Assembly (NCBI GenBank): GCA_017442785.1
Contig: JAFRZB010000046.1
Location: 1 to 54,558, forward strand
Length of the DNA: 54,558 nt
Direction of reading: 5' to 3'
Source of the DNA: Bacillota bacterium
GTDB taxonomy: Bacteria > Bacillota > Clostridia > Peptostreptococcales > Anaerovoracaceae
This document shows, one piece after another, positions 5,933 through 36,212 of the stretch (positions within the stretch are counted from its first letter, which is position 1; each line of letters opens with the position of its first letter). The notes below the pieces were generated by a model. It saw only the letters and a list, made by a program, of their open reading frames with translations, was not told the origin of the DNA and searched no databases. A program made the translations under genes and the position numbers.

Positions 5933-7911
5933 GCGGCATCTTCGTAAAGCTCCTGAACATGAGCATTGCCGCAGGCTGGATAATCGCTGTGATAATCCTC
6001 CTGAGGATAGTGTTTAAAAAAGGCCCCAAGTGGGCAAGGTGCATTCTCTGGGCGGTAGCAGCGCTGAGGCTTCTGATCCCGTTCTCCCTGGAGAGCAGCC
6101 TGAGCGTGCTTCCGAGCGCCAGGACAGTCGTGGTAGACGAGTACTACGAGGAAGGGACCACGGAGAAGCAGGAAGGCGTCATCATACAGATAGAAAGCGG
6201 TATTCCGGCTGTTGACCGGAGCATAGAGCCGGTGATAGGGAGTCTGCGGTCCGGGGATCGGAGCAATGGCGGAAATAAGGCGGCGGAGCTTCTGGACATA
6301 TGCGCCTGTATATGGGCGGCAGGCGTCCTTCTGATGTCAGGATACGCTGCTTTCAGCTACGTAAGGCTCCTTCGGCTGACCCGATCCGGCATCAGAAGGC
6401 CCGACGGCGTCTATATCTGCGACAGGACGGATCAGCCCTTTATTCTGGGGATAGTACGTCCGCGGGTGATCCTCCCCTCGGGAAACATGCCCGGGGAACA
6501 GCACGTGATAGCGCACGAGAAGGCGCATCTTTCCCGCAGAGACTATCTCTGGAAGCCTCTCGGTTGGCTGCTGCTGACGGTCTACTGGTTCAACCCGCTG
6601 ATGTGGGCTGCGTATATCCTCTTCTGCAGGGACATAGAGCTTGCCTGCGACGAAAAGGCTGTAAAGGATATGACCGGCAGCGCCAGGGCAGATTACTCAA
6701 GGACGCTGCTTGCGCTCGGAAGCGTTCGCAGAGCAGTTTCGGCCTGCCCTCTGGCCTTCGGCGAGACGGCGGTAAAAGACAGGATAAAGACCGTCCTCAA
6801 TTACAAAAGGCCCGCGTTTTGGGTGGTAGCGGCGGCCATCATCGTCTGCATTGCTCTTGCGGTGTGCTTCCTTACGGACAGACCGGAAAAGATCCCGCAG
6901 CAGGGCAAAATTTCCGAGTGGTTCGACATGTACGACATGCTCCACGGCAAAGAGGAATTTAATTTCGAGTTCCCGGAGGACTATACAACGGACGCCTTCC
7001 CCGGGGCAAGGTTCGCTTTTAACGGAGAGCCCGGATGTCTGCACGTGGTTGAAAAGGACGGGAATATAAAGCGTCTCAACTATGGGATGCCGCTGAACGC
7101 GTGGCTTTGCGATCTTACGGGAGACGGAAAGCCGGAACTGTGCGTCACCTTTGAGAGCGGTTCCGGGCATACGATAGAGCACATCATAGTCTACGATTAT
7201 GCAGAAGATAAGCTATATAGGTTCATCGAGCCGGACTTCGATCTTGCACTTAAATACAGCAACGGAAAATTAGTTGCAGAGAAAAGGATACATATCGGGG
7301 CGCCCGGAAGAGGACCTCTGGTTGCAAGAGGGCTCATCATGATAAAGAACGGTGCCCTGGCCATGCAGAACGGCGAAAAGACTGAGGTAGAGGACTTCGT
7401 AACGGCCCAGGGATACGACTTCGGATATACCGGTTACGATCTTGAGATGCATCCCGGGGACTGCGTCCTTATAACTGACGGCCGCGGCGGAGAAAGGTAC
7501 ATCTCACTTTATGGCGGGTACATCTACATAGGGTATACCGGGGACGGAAGGACTGTATATAAAGAGTATGTGCAGTTCCGCCCAAACGATTCCGAAGGCA
7601 GGAACATGAGTCTGGATGATGTGCTTGAGCTTTCGAAGAAGGGTGAGGCGCTGAGCCTTGAAGACCTTAAGGGCTATGCCTTCAGCGAGATAGGCTCAGG
7701 GGTCAATGTGAGGCTCTATACGCTCGGTGTCCTCTATTATGTGCCTTATTATCTTACGGTGAGTGAGCTCAACGGCGTTCTCGGCACTTCCCTGGTGTAC
7801 GTCCCCACGGGGGACAGTATAGACATAAGAAAAGAGGATCCCTGGGCCTTCTGGGAAAGGCACAGAGAGCCTCAGATTGAGGATGTTTCGGAGGAAGGCC
7901 CCGCGGGTTAG
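5929..7911 (+). CDS. M56-family (BlaR1-like) membrane metallopeptidase with unrelated C-terminal domain
   Basis: The N-terminal part of this 660-residue protein is the BlaR1/MecR1 peptidase: membrane segments near 10-28 and 35-55, another near 123-145, the zinc motif HEKAH at 196-200, and the third-ligand region ELACDEKAV. A further membrane segment (WVVAAAIIVCIALAVCFL) lies near residue 300. In BlaR1 the C-terminal sensor is a penicillin-binding domain, but here the last 350 residues show no SxxK/KTG pattern. Instead there is LCDLTGDGKPELCVTFESGSGH, like an FG-GAP or calcium-binding repeat, and beta-rich sequence. The signal sensed is therefore unknown. The gene overlaps the repressor by four bases, and its stop overlaps the stop of the convergent DUF1015 gene. 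Confidence 0.88.
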   Translation: MSGIFVKLLNMSIAAGWIIAVIILLRIVFKKGPKWARCILWAVAALRLLIPFSLESSLSVLPSARTVVVDEYYEEGTTEKQEGVIIQIESGIPAVDRSIEPVIGSLRSGDRSNGGNKAAELLDICACIWAAGVLLMSGYAAFSYVRLLRLTRSGIRRPDGVYICDRTDQPFILGIVRPRVILPSGNMPGEQHVIAHEKAHLSRRDYLWKPLGWLLLTVYWFNPLMWAAYILFCRDIELACDEKAVKDMTGSARADYSRTLLALGSVRRAVSACPLAFGETAVKDRIKTVLNYKRPAFWVVAAAIIVCIALAVCFLTDRPEKIPQQGKISEWFDMYDMLHGKEEFNFEFPEDYTTDAFPGARFAFNGEPGCLHVVEKDGNIKRLNYGMPLNAWLCDLTGDGKPELCVTFESGSGHTIEHIIVYDYAEDKLYRFIEPDFDLALKYSNGKLVAEKRIHIGAPGRGPLVARGLIMIKNGALAMQNGEKTEVEDFVTAQGYDFGYTGYDLEMHPGDCVLITDGRGGERYISLYGGYIYIGYTGDGRTVYKEYVQFRPNDSEGRNMSLDDVLELSKKGEALSLEDLKGYAFSEIGSGVNVRLYTLGVLYYVPYYLTVSELNGVLGTSLVYVPTGDSIDIRKEDPWAFWERHREPQIEDVSEEGPAG

Positions 7912-8957
7912 AGCCTCCTGCACTCAAGATAATAGCGTTTATCGGACGCGCGCCCTATGGAGAAGGTCTTCTTCGGCAGGGCGCCGTTTTTTATTATGTC
8001 GGAAAACAGCTGTTCCCTGGGGTAGGGAAGGCGTATGTCCGCCGTGCAGCCCAGCTTTTCCGCAAGGGCACGGCACTCCTCTTCTCCGTGGATGTAATCG
8101 ATCACCTGTCCGTCCTTAACCAGGCGGTGTATGGGAAGGAACTGAAGGGCGGGGTCGTAGAGGTTAACAAGCTCAACTAGGGCAAAGCGCTTGTCGGAGC
8201 TTATGCCGCGGGCCTTCTCCTGCTCCCGGCAGAGCTTGGCAGCTGCCAGAGAATGGTTGCCGTCACCCACGGCAAAGAGCATGCCGTCCTCGGCTTTCGC
8301 AAGCAGTATGTTGAAAATATCTGCAACTACATTCCAGTCTCTGATGGTCTGCAGCAGCCAGCCGCATATCCTGCCGCCTCCCAGCATCAGCGGGAAGTCG
8401 TACAGGGGCCTGCGGTTTCTGGTAAGGACCTCAAGGCTTCCCATCAGCATGTCCTTGGGATCCCTGAACAGCAGCATGGCGTGGGGCATCTCAAGCGGCG
8501 CGGTCTTTCTTATCTCCACGCGCACCGGAAGGCGGCTCTCCACGGTCTCTTCGGAGGCTCGTATAAGGGCTTTGCTGCCCGGGCGGTAGTCGAAACGGTC
8601 CATGTCCGCAAGAGCCAGAAGCCCCCTGCGCGTTCCGGAGGAAGTCTCGCGCTTAATGAATACAAAACCCTCCGGGATCTCCCGGAGAGTTCCGTTTTCA
8701 AGATATTCCTTCATTTTGCGGGGTATGGCCGCCTCGTGTCCTTCGTGCCCTTTTCCGGCTTCGCCAAGCCAGGCCTCCGGCATCTGAAGGTCCAGAGTGG
8801 ACGGAGCGCCCCCGATCAGCTCTTCCGCCTTCTGCCAGTAGCCCGGATCCGACGTGTACTGGTCGCATGCTATGGTGGCCCACTTTTCAAGATCCGTGCC
8901 CTCTGCAGGAATAAGGATCTTAGGCGCGTATATACCAAAACCCCCGTTATCAGTCAT
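7908..8957 (-). CDS. DUF1015-family protein, third gene of the serine operon
   Basis: The 349-residue protein starts FGIYAPKILIPAEGTDLEKWATIACDQYTS and contains AVGDGNHSLAAAKLCRE, both typical of DUF1015 proteins, which are often encoded beside serC and serA. The biochemical role of the family is not established to my knowledge; the GDGNHS motif is its most conserved part. It is somewhat shorter than members of about 410 residues. It begins nine bases after the serA stop and is part of the same minus-strand operon, so it should be under the same Ser attenuator. Its stop overlaps that of the convergent M56 gene by four bases, with no room for a terminator. Confidence 0.85.
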   Translation of the reverse strand: MTDNGGFGIYAPKILIPAEGTDLEKWATIACDQYTSDPGYWQKAEELIGGAPSTLDLQMPEAWLGEAGKGHEGHEAAIPRKMKEYLENGTLREIPEGFVFIKRETSSGTRRGLLALADMDRFDYRPGSKALIRASEETVESRLPVRVEIRKTAPLEMPHAMLLFRDPKDMLMGSLEVLTRNRRPLYDFPLMLGGGRICGWLLQTIRDWNVVADIFNILLAKAEDGMLFAVGDGNHSLAAAKLCREQEKARGISSDKRFALVELVNLYDPALQFLPIHRLVKDGQVIDYIHGEEECRALAEKLGCTADIRLPYPREQLFSDIIKNGALPKKTFSIGRASDKRYYLECRRL

Positions 8958-8966
8958 CAGTACGCC

Positions 8967-10136
8967 TTACTTTATCACCCTTACGCGTATAACGCCGTCA
9001 ATGGCGGATATTGCGTCTGCAAGCTCCTTGGGAGTCTCGCCGTTGAAGTCCAGTATGGTGTAGGCTATGCCGGCCTTGGACTTGTTAACAAGGTTCTCTA
9101 TGTTAAGGCCGAGGGATACCACCTTTTCGGTCATGAGTCCCAGCATGCCTATCTTGTTCTCGTGGATGACGGTAATGCGGTCTCCGTCCGCGCGGGCAAA
9201 GCTTACGTCCGGCAGGTTGACGGAGTTGATGATGTTTCCGTTCTCAATGTATTCCACGGTCTGACGGGCGCCCATCACGGCGCAGTTGATCTCAGCCTCG
9301 GGTGTTCCGGACGCCAGGTGCGGAGTGCAGAACACGTGCTCATGCTTCATCTGCTCCGGGGTGGGGAAGTCCGTGGCGTAGCCCTTTATCTTGCCGCTCT
9401 CAAGCGCGGCGCAAAGATCCGCGTTGTTTACTATGCCGCCGCGGGCGTAGTTTATAAGGTAGACGCCGTCGTTCATTATCTCGATGGTGTCCTTATTTAT
9501 CATGTCCTTTGTCTCTTCGTTGAGAGGAACGTGCACCGTAACTATGTCGGCGCCCGTAAGGGCCTCCTCCAGGGTGGGCACGAAGCTCAGGTAGCTCCTC
9601 AGCTCCTCAACGCGCGCGTGGGAGAGGTAGGGGTCGTAGCCTATTACCTTCATGCCGAGGTCGTGGCAGGCCTTAGCCATGCGGGAACCTACGTTGCCCA
9701 CGCCCAGGATGGTTATCTGCCTTCCCATAATCTCCGGGCCGCGGAAGGCTTCCTTGCCGTTCTCGACCGTCTTGCTGCCGTACTTGGTGTCCTCGTCCGG
9801 AAGGTTCTTTACCCAGGTCATGGCCTCGTAGCCGTTGCGCATCAGCATTATCATGGCGGCTATGGTGAACTCCTTTACCGCGTTGGCGTTTCCGCCCGGG
9901 GCGTTGACTACGCAAATGCCTTCCTTAGTGCAGCGCTCGATGGGGATGTTGTTTACACCGGCTCCGGTCCTTGCGATTATCTTGAGGTTCTTTCCGAACT
10001 CCATGTCGTGTATGGGCTTGGAGCGCACCATTATGCCGTCCGGATCCTTGCAGTCCGTGCTGATATTGTACTTTTCCGGCTTAAATACCTTAAGTCCTTC
10101 GGGTGCTATGTTGTTTAATGTCTGGATATTATACAT
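8967..10136 (-). CDS. serA: D-3-phosphoglycerate dehydrogenase
   Basis: Catalyses the first step of serine synthesis, NAD-dependent oxidation of 3-phosphoglycerate. The 389-residue protein has the Rossmann motif ILGVGNVGSRMAKACHDLGMKVIGYDPYL, the substrate and catalytic segments RTGAGVNNIPI, NYARGGIVNNADL and CTPHLASGTPEAE (His-Glu relay), and a C-terminal ACT-type domain (RITVIHENKIGMLGLMT...ISAIDGVIRVRVIK) that usually carries serine feedback inhibition. It lacks the extra ASB domain of long-form enzymes. Its start overlaps the end of serC by eight bases, so the two are translationally coupled. Confidence 0.96.
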   Translation of the reverse strand: MYNIQTLNNIAPEGLKVFKPEKYNISTDCKDPDGIMVRSKPIHDMEFGKNLKIIARTGAGVNNIPIERCTKEGICVVNAPGGNANAVKEFTIAAMIMLMRNGYEAMTWVKNLPDEDTKYGSKTVENGKEAFRGPEIMGRQITILGVGNVGSRMAKACHDLGMKVIGYDPYLSHARVEELRSYLSFVPTLEEALTGADIVTVHVPLNEETKDMINKDTIEIMNDGVYLINYARGGIVNNADLCAALESGKIKGYATDFPTPEQMKHEHVFCTPHLASGTPEAEINCAVMGARQTVEYIENGNIINSVNLPDVSFARADGDRITVIHENKIGMLGLMTEKVVSLGLNIENLVNKSKAGIAYTILDFNGETPKELADAISAIDGVIRVRVIK

Positions 10137-11223
10137 GACGTTCGAACTCCTTCATCACTTCTGTCAGTTTCTTTACTCCTTCGAGCGGCATTCCGTTGTA
10201 GAGGCTTGCTCTGCAGCCGCCGGCCGCCCTGTGTCCCTTAAGGCTTATCAGGCCGTTGTCCGCGGCCTGCTTTACGAACGCTGCCGTCAGTTCCTCGCTC
10301 GGGAGCCTGAAGACAACGTTCATGATAGATCGGTCGCCCGGCCTTACGGGGCACTTGTATATCTTTGAGTTATCTATGAAATCGTAAAGAAGCGATGCCT
10401 TTTCACGGTTCCGTCTTTCCATCTCGGCCACGCCGCCCTGGCGCTCTATCCATTTGAACACCAGTCCGGCCGCGTATATCGCAAAGCACGGAGGCGTGTT
10501 GTACATGGAGCGCGCGTCCGCCGCCACCTTATAGCGCAGCATTATCGGCACCACCGGGTCTATATCCCTTTCAAGTATGTCTTTCTTAAGGATGACGACG
10601 GTAAGTCCGGCGGGTCCTATGTTCTTCTGCGCTCCCGCGTAGATGAGGTCGTGGGCTTTGACGTCTATGTCTATGCCAAGGATCGCCGAGGACCAGTCTC
10701 CTACGAGCCTTGCCCCGCATCCTTCGGGGACCTTGGGAAGCTCCCAAAAGGTGGTTCCGTAGACCGTGTTGTTTCCGGTAAAGTGCAGGAGCTTTGCGTC
10801 CTTTGGAACGTTTGCCGGATCCAGTTTAGGGATATAGGTGAACTTCTCATCCTCGGAGCTTGCGACGCAGACGGCGTTTCCCCAGCGGGCGCCCTCGTCC
10901 ATGGCCTTCTTTGAGAACTGGCCGGACTTTATGAACGCCATGGTCTCTCCCTGATGCGCCAGGTTCATGCACACCTCGGAGAACTGCATGGTGGCGCCGC
11001 CCTGAAGGAACAGCACCGCGTAGTCATCGGGGATGTTCATCAGGCGCCTTATGGCCTCCTCCGCGCCGTCAATTACGGCATCGAAGGGCTTGCTCCTGTG
11101 GCTTATCTCCATTACGGACGCGCCGGCGCCGGGAAGGCACAGGAGCTCCTTTTGGATCTGCTCCAGCACCTCCAGGGGCATCTGGCTGGGCCCCGCGGAG
11201 AAATTGTAGACTCTTTCTTCCAT
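10129..11223 (-). CDS. serC: Phosphoserine aminotransferase
   Basis: PLP enzyme converting 3-phosphohydroxypyruvate and glutamate to phosphoserine. The 364-residue length is normal. Signatures are YNFSAGPSQMPLEVLEQ at the N-terminus, FLQGGATMQFSEV, and DLIYAGAQKNIGPAGLTVV, where the lysine of AQKN is the PLP-binding residue. The C-terminal HRAAGGCRASLYNGMPLEGV also fits. AAGGAAAAG precedes the ATG at 11223. The transcript begins at the strong promoter at 11422-11450 and passes through a Ser-rich leader peptide and terminator before reaching this start. No phosphoserine phosphatase gene is seen here. Confidence 0.97.
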   Translation of the reverse strand: MEERVYNFSAGPSQMPLEVLEQIQKELLCLPGAGASVMEISHRSKPFDAVIDGAEEAIRRLMNIPDDYAVLFLQGGATMQFSEVCMNLAHQGETMAFIKSGQFSKKAMDEGARWGNAVCVASSEDEKFTYIPKLDPANVPKDAKLLHFTGNNTVYGTTFWELPKVPEGCGARLVGDWSSAILGIDIDVKAHDLIYAGAQKNIGPAGLTVVILKKDILERDIDPVVPIMLRYKVAADARSMYNTPPCFAIYAAGLVFKWIERQGGVAEMERRNREKASLLYDFIDNSKIYKCPVRPGDRSIMNVVFRLPSEELTAAFVKQAADNGLISLKGHRAAGGCRASLYNGMPLEGVKKLTEVMKEFERHV

Positions 11224-11263
11224 GGTATCTTTTCCTTCCGCCGCCCGAAAAGACCGGGGGCTA

Positions 11264-11293
11264 TAAAAAAACCGGAAAGCTTTGCCTTCCGGT
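11264..11293 (-). terminator. Attenuator terminator of the serC-serA operon
   Basis: On the minus strand ACCGGAAGGC (11293-11284) pairs with GCTTTCCGGT (11280-11271), a 10-bp stem with one G-U pair and an AAA loop, followed by a run of Ts. It lies between the leader peptide stop and the serC start. A copy of the 3' arm, GCTTTCCG at 11318-11311, can instead pair with CGGAAGGC at 11292-11285, giving a competing antiterminator. Confidence 0.88.
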
Positions 11294-11310
11294 CTGTTTA
11301 TCTAATTTAT

Positions 11311-11318
11311 CGGAAAGC
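11311..11318 (-). promoter_or_regulatory. Antiterminator arm of the serC attenuator
   Basis: GCTTTCCG begins 12 bases after the leader stop codon, within the footprint of a ribosome paused at that stop. It is complementary to the 5' arm of the terminator. A ribosome finishing the leader would mask it and allow termination; a ribosome stalled earlier on the Ser codons would leave it free. The leader's own AAAGGAAAG binding site can also pair with its CTTTCC. Confidence 0.75.
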
Positions 11319-11330
11319 TCGTATTCAAAC

Positions 11331-11393
11331 TTACAGCACCCAGCAGGAGCCGCAGCAGGAAGACGATGAAGATGAGCAGATTGTGTTTCTCAT
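11331..11393 (-). CDS. Ser/Cys-rich leader peptide of the serC-serA operon
   Basis: This 20-codon frame reads MRNTICSSSSSSCCGSCWVL and then TAA. It has an AAAGGAAAG ribosome binding site seven bases before the ATG and sits about 20 bases after the predicted transcription start. Seven of 20 codons are Ser, six of them consecutive and using four different Ser codons; four more are Cys, and Gly and Trp also occur. All four amino acids draw on serine in biosynthesis. The frame is followed by an antiterminator arm and an intrinsic terminator. The arrangement is that of a leader peptide whose ribosome measures Ser-tRNA (and perhaps Cys-tRNA) charging. It is inferred from sequence only. Confidence 0.85.
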   Translation of the reverse strand: MRNTICSSSSSSCCGSCWVL

Positions 11394-11421
11394 ACAACTT
11401 TCCTTTCAGAAATTTGTGTAT

Positions 11422-11450
11422 ATAATACGCCTGCGGAGAGGAATTGTCAA
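11422..11450 (-). promoter_or_regulatory. Promoter of the serC leader transcript
   Basis: On the minus strand TTGACA (11450-11445), a 17-base spacer and TATTAT (11427-11422). It begins just after the bactofilin stop codon. Transcription should start near 11415, giving a leader of about 190 bases before serC. Confidence 0.85.
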
Positions 11451-11453
11451 CTG

Positions 11454-11915
11454 TTATTCTATGGGCGTGGCGTCCGGAGCTGCGGGCGCGGGGGCCGGAG
11501 CGGGCTTTTTGGGAAGCATGCTGAGCCTTCCCTCAAATGTTGAGCCGTCCTCGGTCTCAAGGCTGGCCGTGGAGAGGTTGCCCTTGATGGAGCCGGTGGA
11601 GGCTATCACTGTCTCCGCGGAGCAGAGCACTGTGCCTTCTATCCTTCCTGCAAGCTTAAGGGAGCCCAGAGCCGCTTCGCCCACAAGAGATCCGGTCTTG
11701 GATATGGAGACGCTCTTTGTGGAGCGGATGTTGCCTCTTACGGTGCCGTTTATCTCTACGGGATCCTTGGTGTCGAAATTGCCTACCATTATTATCCCTG
11801 AGCCTATGACAGTCTTATCGGCAGGGACAAACACCTCGGGTGCCTTTTCTTCTATTATTTCCTTAACCTCTTCCTTTACTTCGGGAACGGGTTCTTCCTT
11901 TTTCTTTCCGAACAT
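11454..11915 (-). CDS. Bactofilin (polymer-forming cytoskeletal protein)
   Basis: The 153-residue protein has a charged N-terminal tail (MFGKKKEEPVPEVKEEVKEI), then a central beta-helix domain of about 100 residues: TVIGSGIIMVGNFDTKDPVEINGTVRGNIRSTKSVSI...GSLVGEAALGSLKLAGRIEGTVLCS. This is the bactofilin repeat that self-assembles into filaments, often at sites of cell-wall growth. The tail ends in a Pro/Ala-rich stretch. The start at 11915 is chosen because AAGGAG precedes it; a longer frame to 11969 has no binding site. It has its own divergent promoter, and its stop abuts the serC promoter. Confidence 0.9.
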   Translation of the reverse strand: MFGKKKEEPVPEVKEEVKEIIEEKAPEVFVPADKTVIGSGIIMVGNFDTKDPVEINGTVRGNIRSTKSVSISKTGSLVGEAALGSLKLAGRIEGTVLCSAETVIASTGSIKGNLSTASLETEDGSTFEGRLSMLPKKPAPAPAPAAPDATPIE

Positions 11916-11960
11916 TTTATTCTCCTTAACAGACGGCTGCTGTGATATTTCGTATACTTT

Positions 11961-11989
11961 ATAATACACTAAAAGAAAATTGCGGGCAA
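11961..11989 (-). promoter_or_regulatory. Bactofilin promoter
   Basis: On the minus strand TTGCCC (11989-11984), 17 bases, TATTAT (11966-11961). Its -35 overlaps the -35 of the divergent DUF554 promoter, so the two may compete for RNA polymerase. Confidence 0.6.
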
Positions 11990-12008
11990 GAGGAAAAGGT
12001 GTTATAAT
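11980..12008 (+). promoter_or_regulatory. DUF554 gene promoter, apparently leaderless
   Basis: TTGCGG (11980-11985), 17 bases, TATAAT (12003-12008). Only six bases separate the -10 from the ATG at 12015, so transcription should start at or next to the start codon, leaving no room for a ribosome binding site. Confidence 0.6.
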
Positions 12009-12014
12009 CTGCCC

Positions 12015-12716
12015 ATGGACATATTTATAGGAGTTCTTGCAAATACAGGCCTTGTGGTCTTAGGCACTGTCATAGGCTGCGTCCTGGGGGGCGAAAAGGT
12101 GCGCCGGATAGCGCAGCGCGTGTTCCAGCTGTTTGCCATATTCGTGATACTTCTCGGCATAGAGGGCGCCCTTGGGATAAAGGAGCCGCTCAAGGCCATG
12201 ATATTCATAGTGGTAGGCACTGTAATTGGAGAGCTCATAGACATAGACAAACAGCTCAATAGGCTCGGAGGCTTTATCCAGAGGAAGCTCTCCCGCGGAA
12301 AAGCAGGGGACAGCCGCTTTGCCGAGGGCTTCATACAGGCGGTGCTGCTCTTCTGCATCGGATCCATGACCTTCATAGGCGCGCTGGAGTCCGGCATCCA
12401 GCATGTCCACACCACATACATAACCAAGGGGACGCTGGACTGCATAAGCGCAATAACCCTTTCCGCGGCCAACGGTCCGGGTGTGGGGCTGTCGGCGCTC
12501 TTCGTCCTTGTATACCAGGGCCTTCTGGTGGCGCTGGCGGGGCTTCTGGAGCCCGTGCTTCTTCCGGAGGTGGTGGCCCTCTCCGCCCAGATAGGAAGCC
12601 TTATGCTTGTGGGCATAGGCCTTAACATGCTGGAGATAACAAAGATCAAGGTGGCCAACTTCCTTCCGGCCATGTTCCTGCCCATGATATGGCAGGCAGT
12701 CTCCTCTCTCTTCTGA
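12015..12716 (+). CDS. DUF554-family membrane protein
   Basis: A 233-residue integral membrane protein. MDIFIGVLANTGLVVLGTVIGCVLG at the N-terminus and the conserved FIQAVLLFCIGSMTFIGALESG segment in the middle mark the DUF554 family, which has about six to seven membrane segments. Members are thought to be transporters or channels, but the substrate is not known. No ribosome binding site precedes the ATG, and the -10 TATAAT ends six bases before it, which suggests a leaderless message. The EamA gene starts three bases after its stop, so the two form an operon. Confidence 0.85.
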   Translation: MDIFIGVLANTGLVVLGTVIGCVLGGEKVRRIAQRVFQLFAIFVILLGIEGALGIKEPLKAMIFIVVGTVIGELIDIDKQLNRLGGFIQRKLSRGKAGDSRFAEGFIQAVLLFCIGSMTFIGALESGIQHVHTTYITKGTLDCISAITLSAANGPGVGLSALFVLVYQGLLVALAGLLEPVLLPEVVALSAQIGSLMLVGIGLNMLEITKIKVANFLPAMFLPMIWQAVSSLF

Positions 12717-12719
12717 TCC

Positions 12720-13613
12720 ATGGCAGATAAAAACGGCAGGAGCGGAATAGCAGGAGGCCTTATGCTTCTCGGGGCGGCGTTCGTATGGGGCGTTGCCTTT
12801 GTCTTTCAGGTGGAGGGGATGGACCACATAACCCCCGTCACCTTCATGGCAGCCAGGTGCTTCCTGGCGGCTGTCTTCCTCGCCGTTCTTCTGATGATCA
12901 TCCGCGGGCCTAAGAACGCCTTCCGTTTCGACAGGGCAACTCTTAAGGGCGGCATAGGCTGCGGTCTTTGCATAACCGTCGCAAACAACCTCCAGCAGAT
13001 AGGCATACAGTACACCACGGCAGGCAAGGCAGGCTTTCTTACCGGGCTCTACATGCTGCTGGTGCCGATCTTTGCCGCACTGATTTTCAGGCGCAGGGCG
13101 GGGCTTAAGACCTGGATAGCCGTGCTTATAGGCGCTGTTGGCATGTACCTTCTCTGCATCAAGGAGGGCTTTACCATAGAAAGGGGCGACAGCTTCGTCA
13201 TCTGTTGCGCCGTGGTATTCTCTTTCCACATACTCTGCGCGGACCATTTCGCTCCGGAGGCGGACGCGGTAAAGATGAGCCTGATGCAGTTCTTCGTGGC
13301 CTTCGTGCTGTCCACAGTCTGGGCGCTCCTTGCAGAGGCCCCCACCTTTGAGGCCATATGGGAGGCGCGCGTCTCCATAGGCTACTGCGGCATAGTTTCC
13401 GCGGGCGTGGGCTACACCCTTCAGCTTTTGGGGCAGCAGCGCACCCGCTCCGAGGCTGCGGCGCTTATAATGAGCCTGGAGTCCGTATTCGCCGCGCTGG
13501 CGGGCTGGGTGATGCTCAATGAGATCATGACCGTAAAGGAGCTCATAGGCTGCGCACTTATATTCTTCGCCATAATACTCGTCCAGATAGACCCAAAATT
13601 ATACCGAAAGTAG
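12720..13613 (+). CDS. EamA/DMT-family transporter
   Basis: The 297-residue protein has about ten hydrophobic segments arranged as two EamA repeats (about 12-145 and 155-290). Typical features are LLGAAFVWGVAFVFQVEGMDHITPVTFMAARCF at the start and YTLQLLGQQRTRSEAAALIMSLESVFAALAGWVMLNEIMTVKELIGCALIFFAII near the end. The family exports or imports metabolites such as amino acids; the substrate here is not predictable. The ATG at 12720 lies three bases after the DUF554 stop. An intrinsic terminator follows at 13637-13665. Confidence 0.92.
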   Translation: MADKNGRSGIAGGLMLLGAAFVWGVAFVFQVEGMDHITPVTFMAARCFLAAVFLAVLLMIIRGPKNAFRFDRATLKGGIGCGLCITVANNLQQIGIQYTTAGKAGFLTGLYMLLVPIFAALIFRRRAGLKTWIAVLIGAVGMYLLCIKEGFTIERGDSFVICCAVVFSFHILCADHFAPEADAVKMSLMQFFVAFVLSTVWALLAEAPTFEAIWEARVSIGYCGIVSAGVGYTLQLLGQQRTRSEAAALIMSLESVFAALAGWVMLNEIMTVKELIGCALIFFAIILVQIDPKLYRK

Positions 13614-13636
13614 AAAATAAATTATTCTAACAGTAT

Positions 13637-13665
13637 CAGCAGTGTCTTCCATTGCTGTTTTTTTT
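13637..13665 (+). terminator. Intrinsic terminator after the EamA gene
   Basis: AGCAGTG and CATTGCT form a 7-bp stem with one G-U pair and a TCTTC loop, followed by GTTTTTTTT. It ends the DUF554-EamA transcript. Confidence 0.8.
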
Positions 13666-13708
13666 CTGTTATCATACTGACATCAGAAGAAAGCAGGAGG
13701 TAAAGACA

Positions 13709-13801
13709 ATGATGACATGGTTTGCCGATAAGATAAACGCCATAAGAAAGAGACAGGAGATACACATCTTCCTGTCGGAGAGAAAGTCCCTGAGGATGTA
13801 G
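13709..13801 (+). CDS. 30-residue basic peptide upstream of the XRE/TPR regulator
   Basis: This short frame encodes a peptide beginning MMTWFADKINAIRKRQEIHI and ending LSERKSLRM. The ribosome binding site AGGAGG lies eight bases before the ATG, as good as any in the window. It ends six bases before the start of the regulator, so the two are probably co-translated. The peptide is amphipathic and basic, with no signal sequence. It could be a signalling peptide, a leader controlling the regulator, or a small functional protein. I do not recognise it, and expression is not proven. Confidence 0.55.
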   Translation: MMTWFADKINAIRKRQEIHIFLSERKSLRM

Positions 13802-13807
13802 CAAGAC

Positions 13808-14878
13808 ATGAAGATAGATCTTCCGGAAAACATACGCGCTCTGAGAAAAGAGAGGAAGCTCACACAGGAGCAGCTGGCGGACGCCCTGGGCGTTACTACA
13901 GGCGCCGTCCACAAGTGGGAGGCCGGCCTTTCTGTGCCGGAGCTGGACATGATAATACGGATGGCGGGGCTCTTCGACACGTCCGTGGACGCACTTTTGG
14001 GCTACCACATAAAGGACGACAGCCGCAAGGCGATAATAGAAAGGATCGGCACCGGCTGCCGCATCATGGATCCTAAGACCCTGGCGGAGGCGGAGCTGGC
14101 GCTCACCAAGTATCCCAACTCCTTTGAGATAGTCCATACCTGCGCCTTCGCCTACCTGGTGTTCGGCATGGGCAGCCACGACAAGGCTCAGATCCGAAGA
14201 GGCCGGGACCTTCTGGAGAAGGCCCTGCTTCTGCTTCCGCAGAACAAGGATCCGGAGATCAGCGAGCATACGCTCTACGCAAACATCTCCGCCGCGAGCT
14301 TTGCCCTCGGTGAGCCCGACAAGTGCCTGGAGCTCCTTAAGGAGCACAATGTGGGAGGGCTGTTCAACTCCGACATAGCGTCGGTGCTGCTGTATTCAAA
14401 AAAGCCCGAAGAAGCCGCTCCCTACCTGTCCAAATCCCTGTATTCCGGCTATTTTGAGCTTTTGAGCGCTGCCTCCGGATTTGCTATGGTGTTCCTCGGA
14501 CGCAGGGACTACGTTTCCGCCGTCAGGATACTTGAGTGGGGACTCGATACGCTCGAGGGACTTAAGACCGGCGAGGGGACAGGCTACATAGACAAGGTGC
14601 ATGCGCAGCATCTGGTATTGCTTGCATGCGCAAGGCTTAAGACCGGGGAAAAGGAAAAGGCCCTTGAGATCTTAAGGACTGCCGCGGAGCTTGCCGCGCG
14701 TTTCGACGCAGCATCCGATTACGGCTTTTCGTCCCTCAAATATCTGGACAACATTGAATACGGAAGCGCCCACGATGCTCTGGGCGCTACAGCGGCGGAA
14801 GGCATCGAAAATATGCTGAAACAGCTGGAAGATCCGGAAATTACAAGCCTTTGGAAGAGTGCAACTGAAAATAAGTGA
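13808..14878 (+). CDS. XRE-family helix-turn-helix regulator with TPR-like repeats
   Basis: Residues 5-60 are a classic XRE domain (IRALRKERKLTQEQLADALGVTTGAVHKWEAGLSVPELDMIIRMAGLFDTSVDALLGY). The remaining 290 residues are helical and repeat-like, including ALLLLPQNKDPEISEHTLYANISAASFALGEPDKCLELLKEH, in the manner of TPR proteins. The layout recalls peptide-responsive RRNPP regulators, though I cannot prove membership. A 30-codon peptide gene immediately precedes it, and an MFS exporter gene starts one base after its stop. A peptide-sensing or drug-responsive circuit is possible. The last codons contain the recurrent GCAACTGAAA motif. Confidence 0.85.
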   Translation: MKIDLPENIRALRKERKLTQEQLADALGVTTGAVHKWEAGLSVPELDMIIRMAGLFDTSVDALLGYHIKDDSRKAIIERIGTGCRIMDPKTLAEAELALTKYPNSFEIVHTCAFAYLVFGMGSHDKAQIRRGRDLLEKALLLLPQNKDPEISEHTLYANISAASFALGEPDKCLELLKEHNVGGLFNSDIASVLLYSKKPEEAAPYLSKSLYSGYFELLSAASGFAMVFLGRRDYVSAVRILEWGLDTLEGLKTGEGTGYIDKVHAQHLVLLACARLKTGEKEKALEILRTAAELAARFDAASDYGFSSLKYLDNIEYGSAHDALGATAAEGIENMLKQLEDPEITSLWKSATENK

Positions 14879-36070: not shown

Positions 36071-36212
36071 GAAAAACGCAGAAAGAGAACGCTTTGCGCC
36101 TGCGGCGGACCCGGCACGGCCTTAACTACGGCTTCGCAGGCAGCCGGCACGTGTACGGCCCGGTCCATAACAGAATTTTCTGTTATTTAATGATTTCTCT
36201 TTCTGCTTTTTC
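36071..36212 (+). ncRNA. Putative structured RNA bounded by an 18-bp inverted repeat, upstream of the reverse transcriptase
   Basis: GAAAAACGCAGAAAGAGAA (36071-36089) and TTCTCTTTCTGCTTTTTC (36195-36212) are complementary over 18 bp with a single bulged C. The 105 bases between contain GCCTGCG/CGCAGGC (36098-36104 and 36135-36141), GGACC/GGTCC, a direct repeat CCGGCACG (36111 and 36144), and a 9-bp hairpin ATAACAGAA-TT-TTCTGTTAT (36167-36186). It ends 12 bases before the reverse transcriptase ATG. This is the layout of retron msr-msd RNAs and of ncRNA templates of some defence reverse transcriptases. It is a sequence-only prediction. Confidence 0.5.

Follow-up and report, generated by a model that had tools for sequence, protein, structure and literature searches.

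Ribosome-mediated transcription attenuators are known for the trp, his, leu, thr, ilv and pheA operons (PMC1183508), and further examples have been described in Corynebacterium (PMC6892785). Attenuator theory expects such leaders to use the isoacceptors which are most sensitive to starvation (PMC1183508). Attenuators based on upstream ORFs have also been predicted for cysS in Rhodobacterales (uORFC-8-2) and for aroF in Acholeplasma (uORFC-13-1) (PMC8632094). The serC RNA motif of alpha-proteobacteria, as presented in the accessible parts of its descriptions, is distinct from the leader analyzed here (PMC1273637; PMC7266159). In Bacillus subtilis subjected to serine starvation, the ribosome density was reported to increase on UCN and Cys codons, and not on AGC or AGU codons (PMC3862929).

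Here, we analyzed a leader unit upstream of serC in contig JAFRZB010000046.1 (GCA_017442785.1) of a Bacillota bacterium from the Anaerovoracaceae; the whole stretch of 54,558 nt is further referred to as the window. The comparison of sequences indicates that this unit is very probably a ribosome-mediated transcription attenuator, which would sense the charging of Ser-tRNA, principally of the isoacceptors that read UCN, and control serC, serA and a DUF1015 gene. The support for this switch is comparative.

Organization of the serC leader unit

The leader unit of the window (locus L001) is located on the minus strand, between a bactofilin gene and serC. The following features were distinguished:

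11454-11969, minus strand, bactofilin gene, which ends just 5′ of the leader unit
11422..11450, minus strand, sigma-70 type promoter TTGACA-N17-TATTAT, 11 of 12 consensus matches
11394..11407, minus strand, leader ribosome-binding site GAAAGGAAAGTTGT, read from the sequence
11396-11403, minus strand, region 1 GGAAAGTT, inside the leader ribosome-binding site and complementary to the antiterminator arm; the pairing is present in the MFE fold
11331..11393, minus strand, leader peptide ORF MRNTICSSSSSSCCGSCWVL, 20 codons, ATG to TAA, with a Ser-rich counterpart in each of the nine same-genus loci that include upstream DNA
11358..11375, minus strand, run of six UCN serine codons, leader codons 7 to 12, proposed to act as the sensor
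11311..11318, minus strand, candidate antiterminator arm (region 2) GCTTTCCG, starting 12 bases 3′ of the leader stop
11265..11293, minus strand, intrinsic terminator ACCGGAAGGC-AAA-GCTTTCCGGT with a T-run, 10-bp hairpin
10129..11223, minus strand, serC, phosphoserine aminotransferase, TIGR01364 above cut-off
8967..10136, minus strand, serA-like phosphoglycerate dehydrogenase gene with 2-Hacid_dh domains
7908..8957, minus strand, DUF1015 gene (PF06245)

The promoter, the ribosome-binding site, the 20-codon Ser-rich ORF, the candidate antiterminator arm and the terminator had been proposed in an initial annotation, and their positions and description were borne out by the sequence. The promoter at 11450-11422 ranked top among six promoter-like sites in a scan of positions 7000-14000, and a TTGACA-like box was recognized, by reading of the loci, upstream of most other leaders. 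When extended in the terminator scan, the terminator stem contained 12 pairs. The serA-like gene matched TIGR01327 with an E value of 6.6e-72 and 243 bits, which is below the cut-off of 454, and a serA relative was found downstream of serC in every locus with enough readable DNA. The DUF1015 gene is likely the last gene of the operon. The order of serA followed by DUF1015 was also seen in L246 and L067, so that DUF1015 lies beside serine synthesis genes there as well as here, and in L005 and L007 a DUF1015 gene starts past serA, at the locus edge. Elsewhere in the window, an RT-5 RNA (RF03026, 89.5 bits) at 36094-36198 was the sole Rfam family above its cut-off.

In the proposed mechanism, the ribosome translating the leader under plentiful serine would reach the stop codon and cover the arm. 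Alternatively, the ribosome would depart and the arm would pair with the leader ribosome-binding site. With the arm either masked or paired in this way the terminator would form. When charged Ser-tRNA is scarce, the ribosome would stall on the UCN run, the arm would capture the 5′ half of the terminator, and RNA polymerase would enter serC.

Serine codons and distribution of the leader

To evaluate the serine run, the leader region was compared with its dinucleotide shuffles. The Ser density of the window ATG ORF, expressed as Ser per eight codons, was matched in 1 of 5000 shuffles, and the same test in six relatives gave 0, 0, 0, 0, 0 and 1 per 5000. Of 80 regions upstream of serC, nine contained an ATG ORF in which Ser filled five or more of eight codons, and the same density of Leu, Ala and Lys was reached in a single region each; of the nine Ser loci, L138 was set aside as unrelated, while L063, L064 and L065 duplicate L002, L006 and L007. 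In the 23 leader-bearing loci the Ser frame was always preceded by a start codon, with a Shine–Dalgarno-like site in 19 of them. An upstream start codon was present for the +2 frame in 12 and for the +1 frame in 4 of the 23 loci. The serine codons of the nine genus leaders comprised 79 UCN versus 3 AGY, counts which are not independent because these leaders share ancestry; the numbers over all 23 leader loci were 167 UCN versus 17 AGY, and those in 41 long ORFs of the window, some of them possibly spurious, were 639 versus 388. The near-exclusive use of UCN in the genus leaders matches the codons that slow B. subtilis ribosomes under serine starvation (PMC3862929). The Ser codons were kept while the RNA around them diverged. 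On the other hand, Ser codons 8-11 were invariant, including their third positions, in the seven closest genus leaders, which counts against the model, because coding for serine needs no fixed third base.

A Ser-rich frame and a terminator, which had been checked for absence upstream of serC in close relatives, were both present in all nine same-genus loci; the genus sample contained 11 genomes, of which ten had serC and nine had DNA 5′ of its start. In the family, serC was found in 318 of 349 genomes, and upstream DNA was read for a subset of loci. The SerC clade of the window, defined as the 22 best-scoring places with at least 59% identity and more than 439 bits, gave 21 testable loci, as L011 lacked its 5′ end, and 19 of these 21 carried a Ser or Ser/Thr leader. 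The remaining two, L198 and L200 from the sister genus g93, had no leader upstream of serC, and another gene ends there shortly before serC, which suggests that the leader is dispensable in some relatives. Four more leader-bearing loci came from MAGs (L066, L067, L072 and L074; SerC identity 59-63%). Loci L067, L069 (the same as L195), L074 and L193 were added after reading of the sequences, having failed the first Ser filter, as did L067 and L074, or having been absent from it; hence, Ser/Thr content is itself a selection criterion of the set.

No clear leader was found outside of the clade among the 29 non-window class-wide loci, L204-L209 and L012-L030; the class-wide sample matched 229 of 391 genomes, and the terminators in all of these sets were checked unsystematically. 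Weak matches to a looser filter were seen in L215, L231 and L236 of the class-wide set and in L206, L208 and L209, and these were read as chance or as antisense to a neighboring gene. A Ser-rich ORF in L015, read by eye, was also interpreted as antisense to a neighboring gene. In a SerC tree of 39 rows, a supported branch (99/98) set apart a group that included the leader-bearing SerCs; this group contained 18 rows with Ser leaders, five with Ser/Thr leaders and five leaderless ones, from the family of the window and from MAGs named Oscillospiraceae. This arrangement fits, and does not prove, a single origin of the leader followed by losses, with either transfer between families or deep inheritance.

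In g93, five of seven clade loci (L193, L195, L196, L201 and L202) had leaders with Thr-Ser runs, not counting the eighth genome, G296, whose SerC is more distant. The mixed runs included STSTST, TTSSST and TTTRSTTTTKGG, and the p values for antiterminator pairing of these leaders ranged from 0.001 to 0.081, which suggests that the switch may be retained with a change in the amino acids it senses. No threonine gene was recognized beside serC in a reading of two short contigs of g93. In L201 and L202 the start codons had no clear ribosome-binding site; they seem to coincide, or nearly so, with the transcription start, and the leader peptide there is possibly leaderless itself. Tentatively, and with somewhat more doubt than confidence, we propose that a UCN-tuned serine attenuator follows one SerC lineage across Bacillota families and has been re-aimed in evolution, such that serC-serA of g93 would answer to threonine, perhaps glycine, and serine as a linked Thr-Gly-Ser pool.

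BLASTN detected one copy of the leader, at serC, in each of 7 of the 11 genus genomes (E below 1e-30), all other matches in the 11 genomes were weaker than E 0.001, and G007 and G008 have leaders too diverged to be detected in this way. The possibility of more Ser leaders in the genus was rejected: the other UCN6 runs were read as antisense to acidic stretches, and no terminator was found within 220 nt of any of 20 such runs chosen among the matches listed (9 from G000, and 11 from G001, G004, G005 and G007). A scan of the window for short ORFs which are preceded by a Shine–Dalgarno site and contain a residue run before a terminator-like site returned five ORFs, among which the run of the serC leader was the densest.

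Alternative pairings and the position of the ribosome

To compare the pairing potential of the leaders, duplex energies between the spacer and the terminator 5′ arm were calculated for the native spacers and their shuffled versions; neither this test nor the spacer-shuffle test described below uses Ser/Thr content. The terminators of L010 and L203, which had escaped detection because of a stem mismatch or an uneven loop, were placed by hand. The data showed that, across the 23 leader-bearing loci, sequence complementary to the terminator 5′ arm lies close to the stop codon of the leader, with a combined p value of 4.9e-10, and of 1.6e-6 when one locus per lineage was used (14 lineages). An earlier version of the test, in which the whole leader was searched, gave a combined p of 2.5e-9; the best partner in L001, L005 and L008 was then inside the coding region, away from the conserved arm. 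In the same test, 87 control terminators showed no excess of complementarity (mean p 0.52, with 11% below 0.1), while 16 of 23 leaders had p below 0.1 (rank test against controls p 1e-7, or 1e-4 for the 14 lineages). Single-locus p values were below 0.05 in 10 of the 23 loci and above 0.15 in seven (L001, L007, L009, L010, L067, L072 and L074), and for the window locus the pairing was no stronger than expected by chance (p 0.24). The motif GAGCTTTCC within the arm was kept in seven of nine same-genus loci, and other lineages have complementary arms of their own. The alternative antiterminator pairing appears to be conserved, in that it holds across lineages, the window locus alone being not significant.

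The arm could also pair with the leader ribosome-binding site, with p 3e-8 for all 23 loci and 6e-4 for the 14 lineages. This pairing reached p below 0.05 only in 11 of 23 loci, which were six of the seven closest genus members together with L009, L067, L072, L195 and L196, and it also appears in the minimum free energy structure predicted for the window leader. The whole window leader folded better than its shuffles (z −3.0), while the same RNA without the terminator did not (z −1.1; 30 of 200 shuffles equally stable).

To estimate the effect of the ribosome, its position was modeled on RNAs ending at the terminator loop, and the fraction of the terminator 5′ arm paired upstream was used as a measure. 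On average, this fraction was 0.79 when the ribosome stalled at the first Ser/Thr codons, compared with 0.39 for a ribosome at the stop codon and 0.66 for RNA without a ribosome. The pairing was higher in the stalled than in the stop state in 21 of 23 loci, with the opposite order in L009 and no change in L001. Because masking of any kind reduces pairing, spacers were shuffled as a control; the stall–stop difference was 0.39 for native and 0.14 (sd 0.05) for shuffled spacers, and it was matched by none of 60 shuffled sets. Hence, in the model, stalled ribosomes would leave the arm free and ribosomes at the stop codon would usually mask it. For the window locus a 16-nt footprint gave a pairing of 0.73 in each of the three ribosome states, and the pairing decreased to 0.50 at 20 nt and to 0 at 24 nt. 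The return of the effect with a longer footprint suggests that the switch in this locus may lean more on ribosome release and on the pairing of the arm with the ribosome-binding site. The window locus is thus weak in both the pairing and the ribosome-model tests, and the case for it would rest on the comparison with its relatives. The cross-lineage complementarity of the arm, the control with 87 terminators and the ribosome-position model together lend support to the reading of the initial annotation, which had proposed a ribosome-mediated attenuator. Beyond that proposal, the comparison identified the second partner of the arm in the leader ribosome-binding site, the near-exclusive use of UCN in the genus and the Ser/Thr variant.

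Other explanations and comparison with known systems

The leader might sense cysteine besides or in place of serine, which we consider rather unlikely. The window peptide has four Cys codons, cysteine is made from serine, the nine genus leaders contain 17 Cys codons in total, several are also found in the leaders of L067 and L072, and B. subtilis ribosomes slow at Cys codons too under serine starvation (PMC3862929). However, the number of Cys codons varies (one in L003; one, outside of the run, in L009) while the Ser run persists, and a serA relative is next to serC wherever the DNA is readable. It is very unlikely that the true product is a hydrophobic peptide of the +2 frame (LYEKHNLLIFIVFLLRLLLGAVSLNTSFPIN), which would start from the TTG at 11397 and act by nascent-chain stalling or as a branched-chain leader. 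Even though this TTG is present in the seven closest genus members and the frame was picked up by the window leader scan, the TTG is only about 3 nt from the Shine–Dalgarno core, and the hydrophobic character is automatic, as UCN repeats give NUC codons (Ile, Leu, Phe or Val). The frame was rejected on the basis of its start codons, which are missing in 11 of 23 loci (L007, L009, L010, L066, L074, L193, L194, L196, L197, L201 and L203).

Firmicutes mostly use T-boxes for their amino-acid genes, and the counts in the genus and the order agree with this, with 0-3 T-boxes per genome in the genus versus 7-26 in a sample of 16 genomes that belong to other families of this order, all of them lower bounds given the strict search filters and the incompleteness of most genus genomes. 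In this genome two T-boxes were found elsewhere than at the leader, both under the gathering score. One of these two (L062, G000:C45:7479-7734) precedes a gene read as tryptophan synthase beta-like, so that T-boxes and a leader peptide seem to be in use side by side in this genome. A T-box has also been reported for the serine genes of Paenibacillus polymyxa (PMC8002221). Still, it is highly improbable that the serC terminator is controlled by a metabolite- or tRNA-binding RNA, such as a T-box or riboswitch, or by an RNA-binding protein, with the ORF being incidental, as the Ser codons persist while the neighboring RNA diverges. A T-box or known riboswitch was rejected by Rfam searches, in which no family reached the gathering score over the leader, and T-box (RF00230) and the serC motif (RF00517) were unmatched at the window locus. 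The sole match at the leader up to E 1 was His_leader, with 21.1 bits against a cut-off of 49, and the loci of 15 relatives gave three matches (tmRNA, cobalamin and tRNA), none of them at the leader, with RF00517 again unmatched. The hairpin could also be a plain terminator of the bactofilin gene, which ends just 5′ on the same strand, with the Ser ORF arising by chance. This is extremely unlikely, and it was rejected based on gene context and control terminators: the unit stays with serC, a different upstream gene was read in L193, L195 and L202, the Ser runs beat their shuffles, and ordinary terminators have no antiterminator excess. The attenuator sensing serine through UCN codons is the preferred explanation; that related gut bacteria have kept the unit suggests that the serine-making genes are switched on when a lack of serine slows ribosomes.

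The statement in the initial annotation that no serine attenuator of this kind was known was not contradicted, as searches of an open-access collection of papers, with most subscription papers lying outside of this scope, revealed no description of a Ser leader-peptide attenuator. The alpha-proteobacterial serC motif RF00517 also precedes serC-serA, but it consists of two stems hiding the serC ribosome-binding site, and the accessible text of its description mentions neither a Ser leader ORF nor a terminator (PMC1273637). The B. subtilis sinR sensor likewise uses the slow decoding of UCN codons under serine limitation, which spares AGC and AGU, but in the available part of its description it is placed inside a coding gene, without a leader peptide or a terminator (PMC3862929). 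The predicted attenuators uORFC-8-2 and uORFC-13-1 share with the serC leader the terminator and the discovery by comparison, while they differ in amino acids, genes and lineages. The resemblance to Rfam His_leader covers the full length and is weak, below the cut-off of this family. Natural Ser and Ser/Thr variants of the serC leader could serve to test the choice of synonymous codons in attenuators, as well as specificity change in a translation-based sensor. Similarly to the classical attenuators, the serC leader combines a short ORF enriched in the amino acid that the pathway produces, a terminator, a competing antiterminator and a biosynthetic operon. Unlike them, it is proposed to sense serine and it occurs in Bacillota, in most loci its arm coincides with or follows the stop codon, and the ribosome-binding site doubles as region 1 in a part of the set. 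The serC leader is most likely a known kind of mechanism that is new for serine. Leader-peptide attenuation would in this way extend to serine as a further sensed amino acid, here in a T-box-poor genus of Bacillota.
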